Notes under the pieces: generated by a model | Database searches by the model: none | Seen by the model: the letters and a program-made list of their open reading frames with translations, nothing else | Told to the model about the DNA's origin: nothing | Assembly: GCA_033816765.1 (NCBI GenBank) | Contig: CM066292.1 | Location: 5,637,419 to 5,701,418 of the forward strand | Origin: Nothopassalora personata | Taxonomy: Eukaryota > Ascomycota > Dothideomycetes > Mycosphaerellales > Mycosphaerellaceae | Length of the DNA stretch: 64,000 bases | Reading direction: 5' to 3' | Translations under genes and position numbers: made by a program | Shown: piece after piece, positions 45,121 through 64,000 of the stretch | How the letters are laid out: each line of letters starts with the position of its first letter | Numbering within the stretch: the first letter of the stretch is position 1

Positions 45121-47080
45121 CTCTTATCTCTAAGTACTAGGTACACCCGTACGTCCGGACCTAAGTCCGACGACTTTATTTTAGACCGCGTCCGACTTTT
45201 CCTTTCTTCTATATTAAACTTATTATATACTATATAGAACTTTAGTATGTACGTCGTTTACCCTTAATATTAAGTTTAATCTATTTAAAGTTACTAGGTA
45301 CCTACTATTAAAGAGACGGTATACATAATTACATTACCGGGTAGTAAGAATCCCGGGATAGGTACCTTAAATAAAAGCTTTTAGATTATACTCTAATAAC
45401 TATACTAGCGATAGGAGGAGATTTAGGCCGAGTTAATTACGATACGAGCCGCTATAAAAGAGTTAGAAGACGCTTAATAATAATCGACCCCTATAGTATT
45501 ATCTTCTACCTAAGATAATACGCCTATAGAGGACCTAATTAAGTAGCTACTATAGATATTAAACACTACGGTAGTTACGCCGCGGGCTAGTAGAGAACCG
45601 TCGGGACCTAGGAGATAGAGCAGATAGTAAAGTAGAGACGTTTAATAACTATCTTCTAAGAATAAAAAGCTCTTCTAAGGTACGATCCGCCCTAAAACCG
45701 ACGCTCTCTAACGAGTTGTATTAGGACGTATTAGATATAACGATACTTTACTAGCTAGTTAGTATAATAGGATATAGCATTTCTAGGAGAAGGGGGATAG
45801 TAAGTACGGGAGGAATTTCGTCGCTTTCTTTATGTAATAAGAGAAGGTTTTTTAGAAATAGTAACGAGCGCGCTAAGGCCCTTAAATAGCTTACTAAGAT
45901 TAGATACGTAAATAGCTAACCTTAGTACAATTACTAGATAAAATTCGACGGGCTCCTACTAAGTACTAGCGGAGAGGACTAGTCTAATAACGCTAAGATT
46001 AGATACCTAAGTAATACCTTCTCTAACCCCGTATAAATATATACGACGGCTATACTAAAAAAGAAGGACTACTATAAGTTTATAGAGGAAGTTAAGAGAA
46101 TTATAACTTATCTTAAAGACATAGACTAGTTTAAAGTAGCCTATAAGAAGTAGAAGGAAAATAATAGCGACTCTAGCGTAACTATTACGGTTACTACTCG
46201 TTCTTTTACGAGAGCTACCGTAATTTAAGCTAGTACTAACGGCGATACCATTATAGTACCGACCTAAACTAGTAGTAGCCGCTCTAGAAGTCGTAAAGAC
46301 CGGAAGGAGGATAAGGGAAAGTAGAGAGCAAAATAGGTTAACGTTACTAAGAGAGACTAACGACGCTAAGAATAGCTCTACTTCCGCTATAGAGCGAGTA
46401 GGTACCGAGTAAAGGAGTACCTATACGCTGTAGTAGTTAACCCTACTAAGATTAATATAACGTACGTCGAACTACTCCTAGAGGGCGATAGTTTTAAGTC
46501 GGACCCCGAAGATATAGGAAAAGACTAGCTCCTAGGTAAAAGCTAGTATTAGGAGATAAAGAAGCACTAGTAGAAAGATAGAATATACTTAAGAGTTCTA
46601 TAAATAGAGACTCTATATATACTAACGTACTACTAAATAAATGTTACGGAACGTTTACCCTTATCGATAAAGGATATATATATACTATACTATAATTAAT
46701 AGAGACCTAGTAAAAGGCCTCGGTCTTACGTATATTAGTAACGAGAGCCGTAAGGCTACTAGGTTTACGGAGGCAATATAAAACTAATTAAAGAAGTAGT
46801 TACCTTCTATATAGAAATCGCTAGAATCTACTAAGTTATATATACTTATATCGTACCTAATCTAGATTTTCTAATAAGTCTAGGAAACTCCTAGAAGGTA
46901 TATAATTAGATCCGGATAGCGCTAGAAAAGCGTTAATACTACTATAGCTTAGTAAAGAAATAGGTACCTAAAGGACGTAACTATAGATAACGTAAATTAG
47001 ATAAACGCTTTACTATAGTTACTATAACTACCATAGAGGATATTAAGAAGGCCCTTAGTAAGAAGGAGCCTCCTACGCGG
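45121..47080 (+). pseudogene. Gypsy-3 gag-protease remnant
   Basis: The plus-strand frame is interrupted by TAG/TAA. A capsid-like gag region (FNNYLLRIKSSSKVRSAL block at about 45.6 kb) is followed by a basic Arg/Ser/Lys linker and a retroviral-protease-like stretch near 46.8 kb (IVPNLDFLISLGNS). It is cut at 47080 by Gypsy-4. The sequence resumes for only 25 bp after Gypsy-4 (53960-53984). A second, longer copy of the same family lies at 59603-62796. Confidence 0.7.
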
Positions 47081-47467
47081 TGTTACGATTCGGTCTAAAC
47101 GGCAGCCCCGACTAGACACACGAAACACTAATCACTTAGAAACACGTAATACTGATTATCTAGACGCACGTAACACTGATCACTTCACGGACTGATTAGT
47201 ATAATTAGTATGCTTAGTAGGACTAATTAAGGTGATTATACTAAGCTATAGGCTCTACGCCGCAAATCTCCTTTGTATTTAGGAACGCTAGAAACCCTTA
47301 TGGTTCTAATGCGTTCAACTTATATTACTATCTTACTAATTGGAATACAACTCTTATTCCTATTATTCATCTTCGCTCAGCTTACTTTAGCCTCTCTAAA
47401 GAATAATACCGCTACGTGACTTAACTTATCTCTCTTTTAAGACTAGCCCTAGAACGAGATAATAATA
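47081..47467 (+). repeat. Gypsy-4 5' LTR
   Basis: Starts TGTTACGATTCGG; ends AATAATA (original CA end mutated to TA). 387 bp. Confidence 0.95.
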
Positions 47468-47484
47468 CTTTAAACGCCCTTAGG

Positions 47485-49580
47485 ATGAGCGCTACTTAAG
47501 CAGCTAGTAGGGGAACACCCGCCCCTAGCGAAGCAGGAAGTATCCGCCGTGCGCTACTATAACAGACCACTACGAAGGACGATAAGTCTAATAACGATAA
47601 CGAGCCTACTCTAAGGAGGAACGACGTTAAGGCTGCTAAGCTAGACCTTTTCTATAGAGATAGGGCTAAGTTCGACGACTGGATTAATTAGATAGATATA
47701 TATCTTATGTTTAACCTAGTCGATGCCGATAAAAGAACTATCTTCGCTATTACGTACCTTCGCGGAAGTGCGCAGAACTAGATCAAACCTTACCTTAAGG
47801 AATACCTTAAAGGTATAGGACGATTAGACCCTACTAGAATGTTTAGGAGCTATACTCTCTTTAAAGATAAGATAAAATTAATCTTTAGAACCTCGAACGA
47901 AGTCTAATAGGCTATACGAATCATTTAATACCTAAAGTAGAAGACGTCTACTTTAGAGTATGCAGCCAAATTCGAAGAATACGGACAAATTACCGGATGG
48001 GACTAGACGGCGTTAATAACTATGTTCCGACGTGGACTTAAAGACTCCGTTAAGGACGAGTTAATAAGACACGGGGGACGGATCACTAACCTCGAAGAGC
48101 TAATAAAGGCGTCGATTAATATCGATAACTAGCTCTAGGAACGATACTAGGAGAAGAGATACAACTCTAAAGTAGGAGGAATAGTAGGATACGCTCCGGA
48201 CCGTAGACCCTTATGAGGATACGTTACGAAGGGAGAATTCTTACGATAAAGCTAGCCCTACTATAGACTACAGCTAATGGAACTAGAGGTTACCTAACGA
48301 GGACGGAGGATCGATAAGAGTAGGGGCTACGGAAAGCCCTTTAAAGGAAAAGGAAAACTCATATATTATGCCTATAGTAAGGAAGGCTATATAGCGCGAG
48401 ATTGCCGCGGTAAAAATATAGTGCGCCGCGAGCAATTTAATATAATGTAACCCCGAACTAGTAAATCTAAGAGTAGCGTTAGATCTCGAGGAGATACCAA
48501 CTATACTCGGAGAGTAGAGGAGAGAGCTAATAATAGAAGCACGACGCCTCTCCTAGACCCCTTAGAAGGACGAGGAGGATACTATAGGTAGCAAATAGTA
48601 GTTATTCTATTTAATGCGAAGAACCAACTACGATAGTCTAACATAATAACACGAAGAGTCGACTACGAGACCGAATCCGAGTCTCGAAATAGTTATAGAA
48701 GCCTTCATTAGCGATTCTGTTACTAAGACTCGTGTTAAATCTACTACGCCGCGAAATTAGGCGTAGGGTATTAGCCTTAGCAACTACGAGGAACCCTAGG
48801 AGCGACGTATAGGTAAGACGCTACGCTCCGAGAAGTGGATATCGATAAATCCTACTTTAACGAAGATAGAAGCGATAAAGAAAATCAGGACCTAGGATAG
48901 AACGGATTATAGTCACTAGAACCATAGGAAGAAAGTTAAGAAACTATCGGGCTAGATACTATCGAGGAAGAATAGGATCCGGAAGAATTAAGCGAAGAAG
49001 ATTCCTCCGAAGGAGAAGAGAGCGACACTAACGACAATAACGAACAACTTACCTTTACGGTAGATGTACCTAAGAAACTATACGACATAATTATCTACCT
49101 ATAAAGAAGGCACGAGGAATTCCTACCTAAGATAGGTAGACGAAGGAAGCTATATTCTATTAAGTTTAATAAGACACTCGACACCCTACGAGGCATAGCC
49201 TAGGGATACCTACTTATAGAAACAACCGAGAATCTAGTAACTACCGTTATAGAACGACTACCGATAGGAAGCCAAATAATAGGAACCGGATATCTTACAC
49301 CGTTAGGAACATTTATATCGAATAAATTACGTAATATAGTGCAATACGCACGCGCACTCTACTTAGAAACGTAGAAGATCTAGGAACGTAATAGACTACA
49401 AGTATAGACATAGGGCAACGGGCTATAGGTTCTAGCCGAAGCCTCTAGGCACGAAGCACAGCGAACTATATACTATTCGGGAAAAGGATTAGCTCCCTAG
49501 GAATAAGCGACCGGAGGGAGTTATGCAATACTTAGGCTTATGCATCGACATTAAACACAGTTTTCTAGACATAAGCAATC
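47485..49580 (+). pseudogene. Gypsy-4 gag
   Basis: ATG at 47485 starts an Ala/Thr-rich N-terminus, then a capsid region (FDDWINQID, YLRGSAQN at about 47.68-47.8 kb) of the type shared by fungal chromoviruses. A CCHC zinc knuckle is still visible near 48.37 kb as Y-x2-Y-x4-Y-x4-C, where Cys and His codons have become Tyr (TGT->TAT, CAT->TAT). It would package the element RNA. It is inactive. Confidence 0.8.
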
Positions 49581-52500
49581 GTTAACGGACACAAGACTAG
49601 TGTTATAATCGACTTAGGAGTAGCGGGGAATTTTATCTCCGAGTCTTTTATAAGAAGAAACGGGTTAGCTACCCTAAAGAAGAAATAGGGTTACGAGTTA
49701 ATCGCGGTAAACGGATTATCGTTACCTAGCGTAGAATGGGAGACGATACTATTGCCACTAGCTATCTAACAGTACTACGAGAATATTACCTTAGATGTTA
49801 CTAATATAGCTAGTTATAACATAGTATTAGGTATGCCTTAGTTAAGAAAGCACAATCTAGTAATCGACTAGAGAAGAGGAGTACTTACATTTAGGGAATG
49901 CGATTGCGTTATCGACATTTAGCCTACGTAGTAGCAGCGTTTACTAGTAGATAAGGCAAGGAAATAGCTAAACAAGATATAGCTTACGCCGACTAGAAGG
50001 ATAAAAGAACCACCTTCGACCGGGATAGACACTAGCGTAGGGCCGCCGGGTTACGAAGTTACTAGAAGTGATAGAAGTAACGCACTATCGAAGAATACTA
50101 ACATCTTAGAGTTAAGTATTCCTAAGGAGTATCGTAAGTAGTCGCGACTCTTTAAAGAGGAGAGAGGCAAAACCGCCTTACCTAAGCACCGCCTATAGGA
50201 TTATAAGATTAACATTTAGCTAGGGAAAGAGCCTCTATAGGGACCCCTATATTAAATGTCTAAGAAAGAGCTATAGACCCTACGAGAATAGCTAAAGGAG
50301 AAGCTAGCTAAAGGATAGATAAGAAGATCCACCTTAAGTGTAGGAACTCTATATATGTTCGTTCTAAAAGCAAACGGGAAGTTGCGACTCGTACAAGACT
50401 ATAGGAAGTTAAACGAGATTACGATTAAGAACCGATACCCGCTACCTAATATCGAAGAAGCATAGGATAGATTAACCGGATCGGACTAGTATACGAAGAT
50501 TAACCTACGAGATGCCTTCTATGCTATACGAATAGTAGAAGGAGAAGAATGGAAAACCGCTTTTAGAACAAGATACGGACTCTACGAATTCTTAGTTATG
50601 CTAATAGGATTAACTAACGTACCCGCATCCTACTAGGACCTTGTAAACGAAACACTTAGAGACCTACTCGACGTATACGTTATCGCCTATATAGACGACA
50701 TACTAGTCTATATAAAAGGATCCCTATAGGAACACATAAAACAAGTCTAGGACGTCTTCGAACGACTCACGCAATTAGGATTCAAGACGGTACCCGAGAA
50801 ATGCGAATTCTATAAGAAAGAAGTTAAATTCTTAGGCTTCATTATTAGCACCATAGGGATAACGATCGACCCTACGAAGACATAGTCAATTAGAGAGTAG
50901 CTAGAACTAAAAACAGTTAAGGACGTACAATCATTCCTTAGACTAGCGAACTATAACCGGAAATTCATTAAGGACTACGCGAAAATAGTAGTACTAATAA
51001 CGATGCTTACGAGAAAGGACGTTACTTAGAAATAGGGAAAGAAACAGACTAAAGCATTTAAGAAACTTAAGGAATAATGCGCTTTAGCCCCTACGCTTCG
51101 ATTATTCGATAGTAGTAAGGAAGTCTACATCGAGACCGATGCGTCTAATATAGTAATAGGCGCGTGTCTAACGTAGACACACGATAGGTAGAGACACCTA
51201 GTAGCCTATTACTCCCGGAAAATGACTATAGCGGAACAGAACTACGACATCTATAACAAAGAGCTTCTAGCCATTGTTACTACTATACAACATTAGAGAG
51301 TATATGTCGAGGGCCTACCGAAGTTAACGATTCTTTCTAACTATAAGAATCTTACGTACTTCACGACGACGAAAGAACTTACCCGAAGGCAAGCCCGCTA
51401 GTCGGAGCTGCTAGGACAGTATAAGTTCGAAATTAAATATACTCTAGGACGAGAGGATAGCCGCGCCGACGCGCTAAGCCAAAGAAGCGACTACATAGAA
51501 GAAAAAGAACTAGTATAACATAAGATATTAAAGACGAACCCCGACGGAAGTCTTAGTGCCAACATAAGAGAATTCAACAATATCGTACGGATATTAGGCG
51601 ATAGGGACGAACAATTCCCTATATCGTAAGGAAAATACTAAGTACCTAAGGATTGAGAAGAAGAATATATACGACAACATCACGACGGACTAACTTATGG
51701 ACACCCTAGAACTTTAAAAACAATAGACCTAATATAGCGTAGCTTCTCATTCCTATAAATAAGACTTAAGGTATTACGCTACATTAAACAATACGTACAC
51801 TACTAACGAAACAAGGCTACGAGACATGCAAAATACGGTTACCTACAGTTTAGGATACTACCGACGAAACCATGGAACGAAGTTATAATAGACTTTATTA
51901 CAAAACTCCTACCGTTAAAGGATTAAGTTACGAAACAACTATACGACATAATACTAGTTATAGTTAATAGACTCACGAAATACGCACACTTTATTCCTAC
52001 ATTAGAAACGTACAATGTAGAGCAGCTCGGATACCTCGTACTAGATAGACTTATCCGATACTACGGATTCCCTTAAGCGTTTATAACGGATAGAGATAAG
52101 CTATTTACATTAAACTACTAGAAGACGCTTATAGGAACGATCGGAATTAAACATAAGCTGTTAATAGCATATTATCCGGAAATAGACGGACAAACCGAAA
52201 GGATGAATTAAACGCTAGAACAATACCTACGATACTACATTAATTATGCACAAGACAACTAGGTCTCATTACTACTAATAGCGTAGATTGTACTAAATAA
52301 CTACAAATTAGAGACAACTTTAACGACACTATTTTATACGAACTTTAGTAAAGATTCTAACCTATTTAGAACACCTAGATCCTACCTATAAGCCGAAAGA
52401 GCAATCGTAACGACGGATACTCTTAAGGAAGTGCATAAAGAAACACGTAAGGCGATCGAAGATGTATAACACAAACTGTCTTAATAACGGTAGGACACGA

Positions 52501-52979
52501 GAAAAATGGCACCTCTGCTAAAAGAGGGGGATAAGGTCTATCTCCTTATAAAAAACTTGAGAACAAGAAGATAGACTAAGAAACTAGATTACGTTAAGGT
52601 CGGACCATTTTTTATCGACAAAGTTACAGGACTAGTTAACTACCGCCTACGACTACTACTAGACGTAAGAATCTACCTAGTCTTCTATATCTCTAAGTTA
52701 GAACCCGTAGACGCCGAAACACCCTACTAGGAGAGCTTCCATTTCGAACCGGAAGTAGAAAACGAATTCGAAGTCGAAAAAATCCTAGATAAGAAAGGTT
52801 AGCGATACCTTATTAAATAGAAAGGATACGACGAATTAGAAAATACCTAGGAACTAGAAAAGAACCTACAAAACTGTTAATAAAAGATCCGAGAATATTA
52901 TAAGAAAAACAAAGACCTACAAGTTAACTAGTAGGGAGTAGTTCGGGTACCTCCTAGAACTCGTTACCGAGACCCTTAA
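49581..52979 (+). pseudogene. Gypsy-4 pol: protease, RT, RNase H, integrase, chromodomain
   Basis: The plus-strand frame shows a protease-like DLGVAGNFI block (49.61 kb), RT with an intact YIDDILVY (about 50.69 kb), RNase H (DASNIVIGACL, 51.14 kb; SRADALSQ, 51.45 kb) and integrase (VIIDFITKLLP; ITDRDKLF near 52.08 kb). A C-terminal chromodomain (EKILDKKG, then LIKxKGYDELENT near 52.85 kb) is expected to read histone marks and direct insertion. It ends at TAA 52977-52979. Interrupted by TAG/TAA but not scrambled. Confidence 0.9.
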
Positions 52980-53481
52980 TAGCACCCTATGTGCCTAGTA
53001 ACAAGTTAAGAGCTAGACCCTTATAAGGGATATCCGAAGGAAGTAAAGAAGCCTCTTCTATCTCCTACTCCTCGATCTCCCTTTCCTTAACGGAAATCGC
53101 CTCCTCGGCACGACGATCTACTAGATCTATCTACTAACGTAAGCGCTCCTCGCGCGCGCGAGTAATCTTTAGATCCTCGAGAGCCTTCTTATAAACCCGC
53201 ATCGCCTCCTCCTAAGCGGACCGAGACTCCTAGATTTTCTAACGAAGACGAGCCTTCTCCTCTACTAACCTCTTAAACTCCGACTAAGTTACTCTTACAT
53301 CGCACCTTTAGCTACGACGAAGACACTTACTACACTTCCCGGAACGAATATGTACCTTACACACGCGACTATGCTTTTCACACGTTAAGCATTTCTTAAC
53401 TATAACTTCTCCTACGGATTTAACGAACTCGTAGAGACGGCGGCGACGGATAGTGCTAGAAGGGCGTTAGTAGATAGGCAT
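52924..53481 (-). pseudogene. antisense Zn2Cys6-like ORF of Gypsy-4, 185 aa
   Basis: On the strand opposite to pol, ATG 53479-53481 begins a 186-codon frame ending TAA 52924-52926. It overlaps the pol 3' end tail to tail by 56 bp. Residues about 31-60 (53302-53391) contain six intact Cys spaced C-x2-C-x6-C-x8-C-x2-C-x6-C, with basic residues in both loops. This is the fungal GAL4-type binuclear zinc cluster spacing. About 100 residues of highly charged Glu/Lys/Arg coiled coil follow, the usual dimerisation arrangement of that class. All internal stops are TAG/TAA. No activation-domain homology is visible. A DNA-binding protein encoded by the element is the best reading; expression is unproven. 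Confidence 0.7.
53302..53391 (-). other. Zn2Cys6-type zinc cluster coding segment
   Basis: Six TGC/TGT codons on the minus strand with spacings 2, 6, 8, 2 and 6. No Cys has been lost in this copy. Confidence 0.8.
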
Positions 53482-53557
53482 CGTAAAGGGAAGAAGCTAT
53501 ACGCGAATACATAGAGGATACCGTTCGTTATAAGTAAGCTTAAGGGACTAAGCTAGG

Positions 53558-53572
53558 CTAGAAGGGGGATAG
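53558..53572 (+). other. Gypsy-4 polypurine tract
   Basis: CTAGAAGGGGGATAG directly precedes the 3' LTR. Confidence 0.85.
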
Positions 53573-53959
53573 TGTTACGGTTCGGTCTAAACGGCAGCCC
53601 CGACTAGACACACGAAACACTAATTACTTAGAAACACGTGATACTAATCATCTAGACGCACGTGACACTAATCACTTTACGGACTAATTAGTGTAATTAG
53701 TATGCTTAGTAGGACTGATTAAGGTGATTATACTAAGCTATAGGCTCTACGCCGCGAATCTCCTTTATATTTAGGAACGCTAGAAACCCTTATGGTTCTA
53801 ATGCGTTTAACTTATGTTACTATCTTACTGATTGGAATACAACTCTTATTTCTATTATTCATCTTCGCTTAGCTTGCTTTAGCCTCTCTAAAGAATAATA
53901 CCGCTACGTGACTTAACTTATCTCTCTTTTAAGACTAGCCCTAGAACGAGACAATAATA
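53573..53959 (+). repeat. Gypsy-4 3' LTR
   Basis: A 387-bp partner of 47081-47467, differing mainly by transitions; followed by CGCGG. Confidence 0.95.
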
Positions 53960-53984
53960 CGCGGGAGGAGCTTAAGAAGAAACT

Positions 53985-54364: not shown

Positions 54365-57300
54365 AGAAGATCTAGGAACGTAATAGACTATAAGTATAGA
54401 TATAGGGCAACGGGCTATAGGTTCTAGCCGAAGCCTCTAGGCACGAAGTATAGCGAACTATATACTATTCGGGAAAAGGATTAGCTCCCTAGAAATAAGC
54501 GTCTAAAGGGAGTTATATAATACTTAGGCTTACGTATCGACATTAAACATAGTTTTCTAGACATAAGTAATCGTTAACGGACATAGGACTAGTATTATAA
54601 TCGACTTAGGAGTAGCGGGGAATTTTATCTCCGAGTCTTTTATAAGAAGAAACGGGTTAGCTACCCTAAAGAAGAAATAGGGTTACGAGTTAATCGCGGT
54701 AGACGGATTATTATTACCTAGCGTAGAATAGGAGACGATACTATTACTACTAGCTATCTAATAGTACTACGAGAATATTACCTTAGATATTACTAATATA
54801 GCTAGTTATAATATAGTATTAGGTATGCCTTAGTTAAGAAAGTACAATCTAGTTATCGACTAGAGAAGAGGAGTACTTACATTTAGGGAATGCGATTACG
54901 TTATCGACATTTAGCCTACATATCGATAGCGGACGATAGTAGATAAGGTAAGGAAACAGCTTAATATATTCGAGCTTACGCCAAATAGAAGGAATTAAGA
55001 ACTACCTTCGACCGGGATAGACACTAGCGTAGGGCTACCGGGTTACGAAGTCACTAGAAGTAATAGAAGTAACGCACTATCGAAGAATACTAACATCTTA
55101 GAGTTAAGTATTCCTAAGGAGTATCGCAAGTAGTCGCGACTCTTTAAAGAGGAGAGAGGCAAAACCGCCTTACCTAAGTACCGCCTATAGGATTATAAGA
55201 TTAACATTTAGCTAGGGAAAGAGCCTCTATAGGGACCCCTATATTAAATGTCTTAGAAAGAGCTATAGACCCTACGAGAATAGCTAAAGGAGAAGCTAGC
55301 TAAAGGATAGATAAGAAGATCTACCTTAAGTATAGGAACTCTATATATATTCGTTCTAAAAGTAAACGGGAAGTTACGACTCGTATAAGACTATAGGAAG
55401 TTAAACGAGATTACAATTAAGAACCGATACCCGCTACCTAATATTAAAGAAGCATAAGATAGATTAACCGGATTAGACTAGTATACGAAGATTAACCTAC
55501 GAGATGCCTTCTACGCTATACGGATAGCGGAAGGAGAAGAATAGAAAACCGCTTTTAGAATAAGATACGGACTTTACGAATTCTTAGTTATACTAATAGG
55601 ATTAACTAACGCACCCGCATCCTACTAGGACCTTATTAATAAAACACTTAGAGACCTACTTGATATATGCGTTATTACTTATATAGACAATATATTAGTC
55701 TATACGAAAGGATTCCTTTAGAATTATATAAAACAAGTCTAGGACGTATTCGAACGACTTACGCGTTTAGGATTTAAGACAGTACCCGAGAAATACGAAT
55801 TCTATAAGAAAGAAGTTAAATTCTTAGGCTTTATTATTAGTACTATAGGGATAACGATCGACCCTACGAGAACACATTTAATTAGAGAATAGCTAGTACT
55901 AAAAACAGTTAAGGTCGTACAATTATTCCTTAGACTAGCGAACTATAACCGGAAATTTATTAAGGACGATATAAAGACAGTAGTACTAATAACGATGCTT
56001 ACGAGAAAAGACGTTAACTAGAAATAGGGAAAAGAACAAATTAAAGCATTTAAGAAACTTAAGGAATAATACGTTTTAGCCCCTACGCTTCGACTATTCG
56101 ATAGTAGTAAGGAAGTCTATATCGAGACCGATACGTCTAATATAGCAATAGGCGCGTGTCTAACATAGACATACAATAGGTAGAGACATCTAGTAGCCTA
56201 TTACTCCCGGAAAATAACTATAGCGGAACAGAACTATAATATCTATAATAAAGAGCTTCTAGCTATTATTACTACTATATAATATTAGAGAGTATATATC
56301 GAGGGCCTACCGAAGTTAACGATTCTTTCTAACTATAAGAATCTTACGTACTTTACGACGACGAAAGAACTTACTCGAAGGTAAGCCCGCTAGTCGGAGC
56401 TACTAGGACAGTATAAGTTCGAAATTAGATATACTCTAGGACGAGAAAATAGCCGCGCCGATACGCTAAGACGAAGAAGCGACTATATAGAAGGAAAAGA
56501 ACTAGTATAACATTAGATACTAAGGATAACCCCCGACGGAAGTCTTAGTACTAATATAAGAGAATTTAATAACATCGTACGGATATTAGGCAATAAGGAC
56601 GAATAATTCCCTATATCGTAAGGAAAGTACTAAGCACTAAAGGATCGAGAAGAAGAATATATACGATAACATTACGACGGACTAACTTACGGATACCCTA
56701 GAACTTTAAAGATAATAGATCTAATCTAACGTAGCTTCTTATTTCTATATATAAGATAAAAAGTGCTACGTTACATTAAATAATACGTACACTACTAATA
56801 AAACAAGGCTATAAAATACGCGAAGTATAGTTACCTATAGTTTACGACACTACTAATAAAATCATAGGACGAAGTTACAATAGACTTTATTACAAAACTC
56901 CTACCGTTAAGGGACTAAGTTACGAAACAACTATATAATATAATACTAGTTATAGTTAATGGGCTTACAAAATACGTACACTTTATTCCTACATTAGAGA
57001 CATATAATATAGAGTAGCTCGGACACCTTATACTAGATAGACTTATCCGATACTATAGATTCCCCTAAGCATTTATAATAGATAGAGACAAGCTATTTAT
57101 ATTAAATTACTAGAAAACGCTTATAGGAACTATCGGAATTAAATATAAGCTATTAATAGCATATTATCTAGAAATAGACGGATAGACTAAGAGGATAAAT
57201 TAGACGCTAGAACAATATATACGGCACTACGTTAACTACGTATAAGACAACTAGGTTTCATTACTACTAATAGCGTAGATTGTACTAAACAAGTATAAAT

Positions 57301-57880
57301 TAGAGACAACTTTAACGATACTATATTATACAAACTTTAGTAAAGATCCTAACTTATTTAGAACACCTAGATCCTATCTATAGGGCGAAAGAGTAATCGT
57401 AACGACGGATACTCTTAAGGAAGTATATAAAGAAACACGTAAGGCGATTAAAGATGTATAATAAAAACTATCTTAATAATGGTAAGACATAAGAAAAATA
57501 GCACCTCTACTAAAAGAGGGGGATAAGGTCTATCTCCTTATAAAAAACTTAAGAATAAGAAGACGGACTAAGAAACTAGATTACGTTAAGGTCAGACTAT
57601 TTTTCATTAATAAAGTTATAGGACTAGTTAACTACCGTCTACGGCTACTACCTAACGTAAAAATCTACCTAGTCTTCTATATCTCTAAGTTAGAACCCGT
57701 AGACGCTAAAACACCCTACTAGGAAAGCTTCTATTTCGAGCTAGAAGTAGAAAACAAATTCGAAGTCAAAAAAATCCTAGATAAAAAAGGTTAGCGATAC
57801 CTTATTAAGTAGAAAGGATACGACGAATTAGAAAATACCTAGGAACTAAAACAACACCTACGAAACTATTAGTAAAAGAT
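54365..57880 (+). pseudogene. Gypsy-5 pol, gag-less
   Basis: Collinear with 49374-52880 of Gypsy-4: protease, RT, RNase H, integrase, chromodomain. The RT active site now reads YIDN near 55.68 kb (GAC->AAT), and many Gln/Trp codons are TAG. The chromodomain region at about 57.76-57.87 kb is still legible. It is inactive. Confidence 0.85.
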
Positions 57881-57945
57881 CCAATAATACTAAAAATAGG
57901 TCCGTCGATACGACCTACGAGGATCTCTCGGCCGACAAGCGACTA

Positions 57946-62796: not shown

Positions 62797-63810
62797 TATA
62801 AGGACCGTAAGGCTATAAGGAGATATCGTAATATATAGTACGCCTACGATCTTCTAATCGTAGATAAACTAAAGCTTGCTTTCTTCTATAGACGCTATAC
62901 GCGTCTCCTAGTATACGTATACGCGTTACGTACGGTATACTAAGCCGGGTATAGCCGCATTATATATAAGGGTTAGCTATAGGCTACCCTTATAACTACC
63001 TCCCCTTCTAGGATAAGCTACCCTTAGCTCGCGGCTTTAGGAGGTTTCTATATAAGTAATCTATCTACTTCTCGTAGATTCCGTTACTATACGACCCGCC
63101 TACGGGTCTCGTACGTGTTATTATCGGGGTATAGGTAGGTATAAAGTTATAGTTACTAGGTTAACTAACTCGAGGGTTTAAGAAGCGTACCCTCTCCCTC
63201 CCTTTCCTTCTTTTCCCTTATACTACCTTCTCGTAGCGTACTATACCCGTACTACTAGCGATCTACTAGCTCCTCGCTAGCGACTATCTAGCGACCCGCT
63301 AGTACTACTATAGCTTTAGAGGAAGCTATCTAAGACTAGCTCCGCTAGGAGGCCCTTATAGGGGACCTATTAGCACTACTAACACTATTACTAGTACTAC
63401 TAGTATAGATGTCTAGCGCGCTCGGCGTACTAGATACGCTAGCGAAGCGTAAGTTTAGCGTACTAGAGCCGTAGACCCCTAAGTCCTTACTAGCTAGGCG
63501 CCTAGGTATAGACATTAAGATATATATATATTATCTCCTATACTTCGTAACTAGTAAGTATTTGCTACGCTCTTCGCTTACGATACGCTTACTAATAGTG
63601 TAATAGACGAGTAGGATACGTATAATAGTATTACTACCGGCGAGTTACTTAAGAAGTATAGGCGCTATAGAGACATTAGGTACCCCTACGTTAGTAATAC
63701 TAGCGTCGCTATCGCGTAGCTAGTAGCTCGCCTACGCGCGCCGCTCGCGCTTAGCGCGATAAGCTTATCTAGGGACTTAGTAACCCTATTACTAAGTAGG
63801 AGTAGGATGG
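62797..63810 (+). other. subtelomeric sequence with a possible mutated ORF
   Basis: RIP-mutated, about 1 kb. From about 63240 the plus strand can be read as Leu/Arg/Ser-rich coding sequence interrupted only by TAG/TAA, running into the telomere. No helicase motif of the telomere-linked type is visible. May be the cut end of another transposon. Confidence 0.35.
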
Positions 63811-64000
63811 TTAGGGTTAGGGTTAGGGTTAGGGTTAGGGTTAGGGTTAGGGTTAGGGTTAGGGTTAGGGTTAGGGTTAGGGTTAGGGTTAGGGTTAGGG
63901 TTAGGGTTAGGGTTAGGGTTAGGGTTAGGGTTAGGGTTAGGGTTAGGGTTAGGGTTAGGGTTAGGGTTAGGGTTAGGGTTAGGGTTAGGGTTAGGGTTAG
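63811..64000 (+). repeat. telomere (TTAGGG)n
   Basis: 190 bp of perfect TTAGGG, 31 full units plus TTAG, to the last base. The G-rich strand runs 5'->3' outward, the correct orientation for a chromosome end rather than an internal telomere-like repeat. Confidence 0.98.

Follow-up and report, generated by a model that had tools for sequence, protein, structure and literature searches.

The locus considered here raises the question of whether a retrotransposon can encode, on its antisense strand, a regulator of the fungal Zn2Cys6 type, and of what such a protein would regulate. The frame concerned lies between pol and the 3' LTR of a Ty3/gypsy LTR element of about 6.9 kb, in a stretch of 64,000 nucleotides from Nothopassalora personata, hereafter the window (Table 1). 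Its position, strand and length are exactly those given in an earlier note on this DNA, and the spacing of its Cys residues reported there, C-X2-C-X6-C-X8-C-X2-C-X6-C, was confirmed. As it stands in the window, this frame is the dead, decayed copy of a real gene and holds 11 internal stops (9 TAG and 2 TAA). Aligned over 6,875 bases, the whole element is 89.8% identical to its intact relative L040. Of the 702 differences, 646 turn C into T or G into A, and this decay bears the mark of repeat-induced point mutation (RIP-type). The motif array of the U3 has suffered in the same element, its TAATTAG-type motifs being decayed from the TGATCAG type of another intact relative, L039; the array statistics given below were computed on the intact relative.

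Table 1. Features of the window at the antisense frame. The gag and pol regions were projected onto the window copy from L040, with an accuracy of a few bases.
Feature	Positions	Strand	Details
Antisense Zn2Cys6-type frame	52924..53481	-	186 codons including the stop, ATG to TAA
5' target-site duplication CGCGG	47076..47080		5 bp
5' LTR	47081..47467	+	LTR pair 94.9% identical; ends checked
gag region, decayed	47693..49507	+	projected stop to stop from the intact relative L040
pol region, decayed	49450..52983	+	projected from L040
3' LTR	53573..53959	+	holds the U3 immediately upstream of the antisense gene's start
U3 motif array	53618..53737		side-by-side comparison with the U3 of L039
3' target-site duplication CGCGG	53960..53964		5 bp

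The earlier note had also stressed that the six Cys are intact. All six are indeed present in the window, but their survival in a decayed copy was rejected as a signal of selection. RIP-type changes at CpA (window 47081-53959 compared with L040) hit sites preceded by C or T more often than sites preceded by A or G and, since CpA following A or G is less mutated, the persistence of the Cys codons is no sign of selection. Among 30 loci with decayed copies, moreover, 17 could be parsed by their Cys pattern, of which nine keep all six Cys and eight have one or two of them changed to Tyr. Just behind the element, a second pol-like stretch (54365-57895) is 90% identical to positions 49373-52903 and stops short of the place where an antisense gene would begin. 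The window ends in a TTAGGG array (63809-64000), which identifies the locus as subtelomeric.

The unmutated copies that the earlier note had proposed to look for are present in the same genome. A search of this genome with the window frame, in which 150 of 546 candidate places were scored so that all counts are lower bounds, returned at least 53 full-length decayed copies at 89-100% identity, the window copy included. The closest relative, variant F1 at 83% identity, comprises at least four open copies and one with a single stop, the frame being open over 185 codons in L039-L041. At least 15 open matches were obtained for F2 and at least 11 for F3, and 13 of the 21 matches listed for F4 are open; at least 32 further matches at 45-52% identity all carry stops and were assigned to no variant. 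A second search with another variant, in which 150 of 863 candidates were scored, added further open variants among the matches listed. Representatives of 14 variants (F1-F14) were taken for comparison. Their proteins share 16-63% identity pairwise, with the exception of F8 and F11 (86%), and their six Cys are invariant.

The antisense frame is a real, conserved gene. In the codon comparison of five variants, all ten pairs show their largest divergence at position 3 and their smallest at position 2, and dN/dS ranges from 0.03 to 0.41 in the seven pairs with a finite dS, the other three pairs being saturated; dS is near or at saturation throughout this comparison. This pattern indicates that the antisense protein is under purifying selection. 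Database searches, which the earlier note had also advised, returned 162 homologous proteins at E<=0.001. The six Cys are kept in 119 of the 120 that are listed, P0067 having Tyr in place of one of them, and three homologues from named species (Cercospora kikuchii, Elsinoe australis and Sporormia fimetaria) have UniRef names starting with Zn(2)-C6 fungal-type. In a second database search (40 proteins), the holders include a Xanthoria steineri metagenome-assembled genome, Ramularia collo-cygni, a Rachicladosporium and an Oleoguttula. Of 50 pattern matches in viral contigs, none was confirmed. It could be argued that such a frame arises by chance, as an artefact of the codon bias of an overlapping sense gene and devoid of any coding function, and long open frames on the sense strand are indeed present at this place in F2, F3, F4 and F5. 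F1, however, has no sense frame of 130 codons over the main part of the antisense gene. The four stop-free copies at 83% identity, the 162 homologues, the codon-position signature and the conservation of the frame over 14 variants led to the rejection of this explanation, which can for practical purposes be set aside. The two observations that the earlier note considered damaging to its own proposal, intact copies devoid of the frame and a strand free of coding constraint, did not materialize: the open relatives examined keep the frame, and its codon positions are constrained.

Copies that carry stops are frequent, and many of those listed for F4 and F6 hold a single one. Stops are found in eight of the 21 F4 matches listed (7 TAG and 1 TAA) and in 13 of the 21 full-length F6 matches listed (10 TGA and 3 TAA), four rows of F6 fragments being left out of the count. 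Five such copies were read (L071-L075: two F4 TAG, two F6 TGA and one F6 TAA). The stop occupies one shared codon in the F4 TAG pair, and likewise in the F6 TGA pair, which suggests that broken copies have multiplied. Given the frequency of stop-bearing copies, an element seems able to do without an intact gene in cis, which fits a protein acting in trans as well as a dispensable one.

The Cys spacing is 2-6-8-2-6 in 111 of the 120 homologues listed, 2-6-8-2-7 in seven and 2-13-8-2-7 in one; the one remaining homologue lacks a Cys. The Pfam family Zn_clus (PF00172) has the pattern CX2CX6CX5-12CX2CX6-8C, with which 118 of these 120 proteins agree; F5-F12 depart from it by having 11-13 residues between the second and third Cys. 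The profile check advised by the earlier note gave no match to PF00172, either for P0001 at E up to 10 or for five open variants at E up to 1, and a protein below this threshold is a divergent relative at best. In a profile comparison (hhalign) with eight Zn_clus domains of the host, all six Cys were aligned with a score of 31.8. This value exceeds all 100 column shuffles (maximum 24.7) and is reached by 3 of 300 shuffles preserving the Cys; 100 earlier shuffles of the latter kind had a mean of 19.2 and a maximum of 34.0. A Foldseek search of 350,542 PDB chains with the predicted structure gave two matches, both to Pho7-DNA and with weak E values of 0.32 and 0.34, and in a second look at 25 chains all 13 entries listed were Zn2Cys6 regulators. 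For a second model (P0127, with the longer spacing between the second and third Cys), Foldseek matched no chain even at E values as high as 10. Structure prediction thus points, with weak scores, to a Gal4-class Zn2Cys6 cluster followed by a long coiled coil, as the earlier note had suggested from the sequence. The predicted layout comprises a basic N-terminus, the Zn2Cys6-type cluster, the long coiled coil, which may serve dimerisation, and an acidic-aromatic tail of an activation-like character; the last 45 residues are acidic in 13 of the 14 variants. The six-Cys spacing of most homologues, the predicted cluster, the coiled coil behind it and the acidic tail are those of Gal4-class regulators (Gal4, Leu3, Hap1, Put3, Ppr1, Lac9 and Pho7). 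Unlike these regulators, the antisense protein is encoded by a mobile element, measures about 165-240 residues, falls below the Pfam Zn_clus cut-off and, in F5-F12, displays the longer spacing already mentioned.

In the 14 variants examined, the antisense gene always lies between gag/pol and the 3' LTR, with its start beside the 3' LTR. Six of the carriers have pol and eight are apparently gag-only. The pol of one copy each of F1, F2 and F4 (L040, L042 and L048) encodes protease, reverse transcriptase, RNase H, integrase and a chromodomain between the LTRs, the arrangement that defines chromoviruses; for the window element, the copy scanned was its relative L040. A sequence reading like a pol tail is found in the F10 slice, and F13 and F14 were detected through their integrase. 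F3 and F5 are 2.45-kb elements made of gag and the antisense gene, without pol. In F7, F8, F9, F11 and F12 the end of gag adjoins the antisense gene, and F6 holds a gag fragment; judged from slices of 1.8 kb, all of these, F6 included, look gag-only. The LTR pairs are 99-100% identical in the copies taken for F1-F4, so these elements have moved recently; for F5, the LTR pair used shows 92% identity and unequal lengths. The distance between the antisense gene and the end of pol varies, with an overlap in F1 and 140 bp between them in F4. The tail-to-tail overlap reported by the earlier note does exist, but it amounts to 59 bp from stop to stop in L039 and L040 instead of 56. Taken together, the pol domains, the purifying selection and a cluster resembling that of Zn2Cys6 regulators favour the presence of an antisense Zn2Cys6-type protein in a chromovirus, and the interpretation given by the earlier note is supported.

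Several observations were made in passing on these elements. Short gag-only elements form a nest within the 8 kb of L045 (C3:3006501-3014500), where F3 and F5 are accompanied by at least one further pair of LTRs. In 2.5-kb slices of four other gypsy classes (L060-L063), no antisense frame with the zinc motif was found, an absence that is provisional; downstream of one of these other pol classes, L061 contains long open frames without zinc motif on the minus strand (503-1150 and 364-963). A tRNA-like sequence, oriented like the antisense gene, is located between this gene and pol in F4 (L048:1113-1190) and F10 (L055:1445-1519), with Rfam tRNA scores of 50.6 and 52.5 bits, and a piece of it is also present in L073. 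ARAGORN assigns it the anticodon CTA, in an anticodon loop that looks irregular, and on account of this irregularity a reading as an amber suppressor was dropped.

A candidate target of the protein lies in the LTRs. Those of the 14 variants start with TGTTACGG, and in most of them short repeated motifs, which differ from one variant to the next, occupy the interval between this start and the LTR body. As this idea was drawn from reading the U3 sequences, the array statistics are not blind to it. Against 500 dinucleotide shuffles, and with the F2 and F14 U3 trimmed of their duplicated initial part, a lag test (lags 7-12) gave p<=0.05 in 10 of the 14 U3, always at lag 8 or 9; a 6-mer test was passed by 9 of 14, and one or the other by 11 of 14, the U3 of F7, F12 and F13 passing neither. 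The bodies of the same 14 LTRs passed the lag test in one case and the 6-mer test in none. Of three control LTRs without antisense gene, none passed the lag test and one (gypsy 1415, p=0.022) passed the 6-mer test; these controls are few, two of the five gene-less elements tried having given no LTR pair in the slices. When five variants had been tested earlier over a longer interval, a 9-bp array beyond shuffles had appeared in F1, F3 and F4 and none in F2 and F5, with an excess of GATC in F1, F2 and F3 and no such excess in F4 and F5. The motifs themselves, chosen for counting after the sequences had been seen, are distributed in a nearly block-like manner: TGATCAG in F1, F8, F10 and F11, GATCTG in F2 and F3, GATCTC with GAGAGC in F4 and F9 and less often in F7, GGTCG in F5 and F6, and GCGAC in F13 and F14 with low counts elsewhere; the U3 of F12 contains hardly any of them. 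Canonical CGG pairs had been considered as targets in the LTRs of five variants and were dropped in favor of the variant-specific arrays; out of 300 shuffles, those with at least as many pairs numbered 17 in F1, 3 in F2, 300 in F3, 215 in F4 and 69 in F5. In the LTRs of L042 (F2) and L059 (F14), the first 79 and 71 bases respectively, TGTTACGG included, are duplicated in tandem.

The antisense gene and the U3 are exchanged as one unit on a near-identical backbone, as is observed in two pairs of variants. Between F1 and F4, identity amounts to 97.1% over 5,644 bp of R-U5, gag and pol. This stretch opens with the LTR body, itself 99% identical, and stops 79 bp short of the point where the pol frame of F1 ends. 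Their antisense proteins are only 40% identical, and their U3 and antisense genes give no blastn match, forced alignment windows reaching 50-63%; the boundary in the U3 is sharp at ATCTCCTTTG. In the same way, F3 and F5 share 98.0% identity over 1,280 bp, a stretch that covers the LTR body and gag and takes in 77 bp at the end of the F3 frame, and have antisense proteins that are 29% identical. The U3 of both LTRs is copied, during reverse transcription, from the 3' end of the RNA, so a single template switch after pol would move the antisense gene and the U3 together. Over the 14 variants, the correlation between protein and U3 is modest (Mantel test: 5-mers, r=0.26, p=0.027; 6-mers, r=0.24, p=0.033; 4-mers, r=0.16, p=0.10), and the LTR body is correlated neither with the U3 (5-mers, r=0.01) nor with the protein (r=-0.01). 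F5 and F6 have GGTCG in common with proteins 52% identical and bodies 43%, and F8 and F10 have TGATCAG in common with proteins 54% identical and bodies 39%. Counter-cases do exist, since F1 and F8, as well as F4 and F9, share motifs with proteins that are only 24% and 30% identical. The main caution is that physical linkage alone would give a correlation between protein and U3.

A variant-specific protein of DNA-binding type, encoded beside a variant-specific promoter array, is most simply read as a self-regulator. We infer DNA binding, the array as its target, activation, an antisense promoter and template switching, which would combine as follows. Antisense transcription starting from the 3' LTR would express the gene; its protein would act in trans on the element's own LTRs, by binding the motif array that their U3 holds in a form specific to the variant. 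This binding would activate the 5' LTR for sense transcription and, perhaps, the 3' LTR for transcription of the antisense gene itself. The gene and its target array would then constitute a physical cassette, exchangeable between elements by a single template switch. On balance, we are inclined to regard the antisense protein as a self-specific regulator of its own LTR, probably an activator, the acidic-aromatic tail favouring activation. The broader proposal, somewhat more tentative, is that one clade of fungal LTR retrotransposons possesses an exchangeable identity cassette, in which an antisense Zn2Cys6 regulator and a cognate U3 operator array, kept together by reverse transcription, may define separate regulatory groups in one nucleus.

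The opposite sign of regulation has to be weighed. A protein that binds the U3 array could shut the LTR promoter of its own family and limit its copy number, with other specificities escaping this immunity. The immunity modules of temperate phages follow this plan, the same backbone carrying an exchanged regulator and target region, and the constant backbone of the present elements with its swapped gene and U3 is reminiscent of them. The arrays, which immediately precede the LTR body with its core promoter, and the frequency of stop-bearing copies would fit repression. The C-terminal tail, acidic-aromatic and net acidic in 13 of the 14 variants, is however more activation-like, and the gene has been kept by eight apparently gag-only variants, which makes a repressor rather unlikely.

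Two other readings deserve mention. The protein could bind the array and lift silencing by the host, with no direct recruitment of polymerase, in the manner of VANC; the targets of VANC are described as often tandemly repeated and variable between related transposable elements, with a proposed coevolution of the protein (PMC5735166), which recalls the U3 considered here. VANDAL is nevertheless an unrelated class of elements, and the defence that can be seen in this genome is mutation of the RIP type, so we hold this function to be improbable. Still less credit is given to a role after transcription, in particle assembly, nuclear import or integration, with U3 arrays serving as targets of host factors and travelling with the gene by adjacency only. 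Adjacency does predict co-inheritance, and a part in retrotransposition is discussed for other antisense accessory genes in the relevant section of a review (PMC7264820). The predicted Zn2Cys6-like cluster with its coiled coil speaks against such a role, and shared host factors would not require arrays that differ among variants in one nucleus.

The earlier note knew of no named family with this arrangement; antisense frames between pol and the 3' LTR do have named precedents, starting with brtn of Boty, for which Zhao et al. (2011) is reportedly the source. This antisense gene belongs to the Boty gypsy elements of Botrytis cinerea (PMC8365987, PMC7264820 and PMC4227169, in their passages on Boty), and a Monilinia transcript is mentioned as resembling truncated Pol and BRTN (PMC5987419). 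As here, brtn is an antisense frame between pol and the 3' LTR of a chromodomain gypsy element of an ascomycete; compared by description only, BRTN differs in that the passages on it neither present it as a zinc-cluster protein nor tie it to U3 motifs. Plant gypsy elements contain antisense accessory frames, namely gene23 of Grande, that of RIRE2 and TRP28 of Retand, the last one predicted to bind DNA (PMC7264820 and PMC11963269, in the relevant excerpts). According to these excerpts, they share the place and orientation of the present gene and a suggested regulatory role, and some Retand carriers are also non-autonomous; they differ by their protein domains, by the fact that cassette exchange is not described there, and, for Retand, by repeat arrays that are internal to the element, mostly between pol and the 3' LTR, instead of in the U3.

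Outside the gypsy elements, HBZ of HTLV-1 is a bZIP regulator produced from an antisense gene that starts at the 3' LTR. Its likeness to the present case lies in an antisense gene at the 3' LTR encoding a transcription regulator (predicted here), and its difference in a bZIP protein of another class carried by a retrovirus. Antisense transcription of HTLV is mentioned in the review already cited (PMC7264820). The nearest working analogue is the VANC/VANDAL system, which the present elements would resemble in their working without being members of it. VANC is encoded by VANDAL, a Mutator-like DNA transposon, and has an anti-silencing function; here the carrier is an LTR retrotransposon, outside that group, and the protein is Zn2Cys6-like, of another family, and encoded by an antisense gene. 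In the portions of the Arabidopsis study that bear on this point, VANC proteins bind motifs that form tandem arrays, and coevolution is proposed (PMC5735166); common to both systems are thus an element-encoded DNA-binding protein (putative here) and family-specific short tandem motifs, both changing between related elements. The main text of a survey of fungal LTR elements (PMC3248453) contains neither the word "antisense" nor the word "zinc" by term search, and no report of an antisense Zn2Cys6 gene, or of a cassette made of an antisense gene and U3, in LTR elements was found in the open-access papers searched. Antisense accessory genes were known already, and what is new here is the coupling of repeated U3 motifs to such a gene as a cassette, a point absent from the earlier note.

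These genes have been known in LTR retrotransposons for years without an established function, and the relevant section of a 2020 review describes their products as having no clear similarity to other proteins, with the exception of the SMC domain in PvRetro13 (PMC7264820). In the present case, the likely protein class, a candidate target and a mode of exchange can all be read from one genome. Should the proposal prove correct, the LTR retrotransposons of one clade operate a transcription switch that is self-specific and built from the regulator class of their own host. Variants with nearly identical gag-pol would obey different switches in one nucleus, and the gag-only parasites would retain their own switch while borrowing the rest. 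The exchange of cassettes would give rise to groups under separate regulation, comparable to those that immunity regions create among temperate phages; this exchange of switches on the same backbone would be a reason why many related families coexist.
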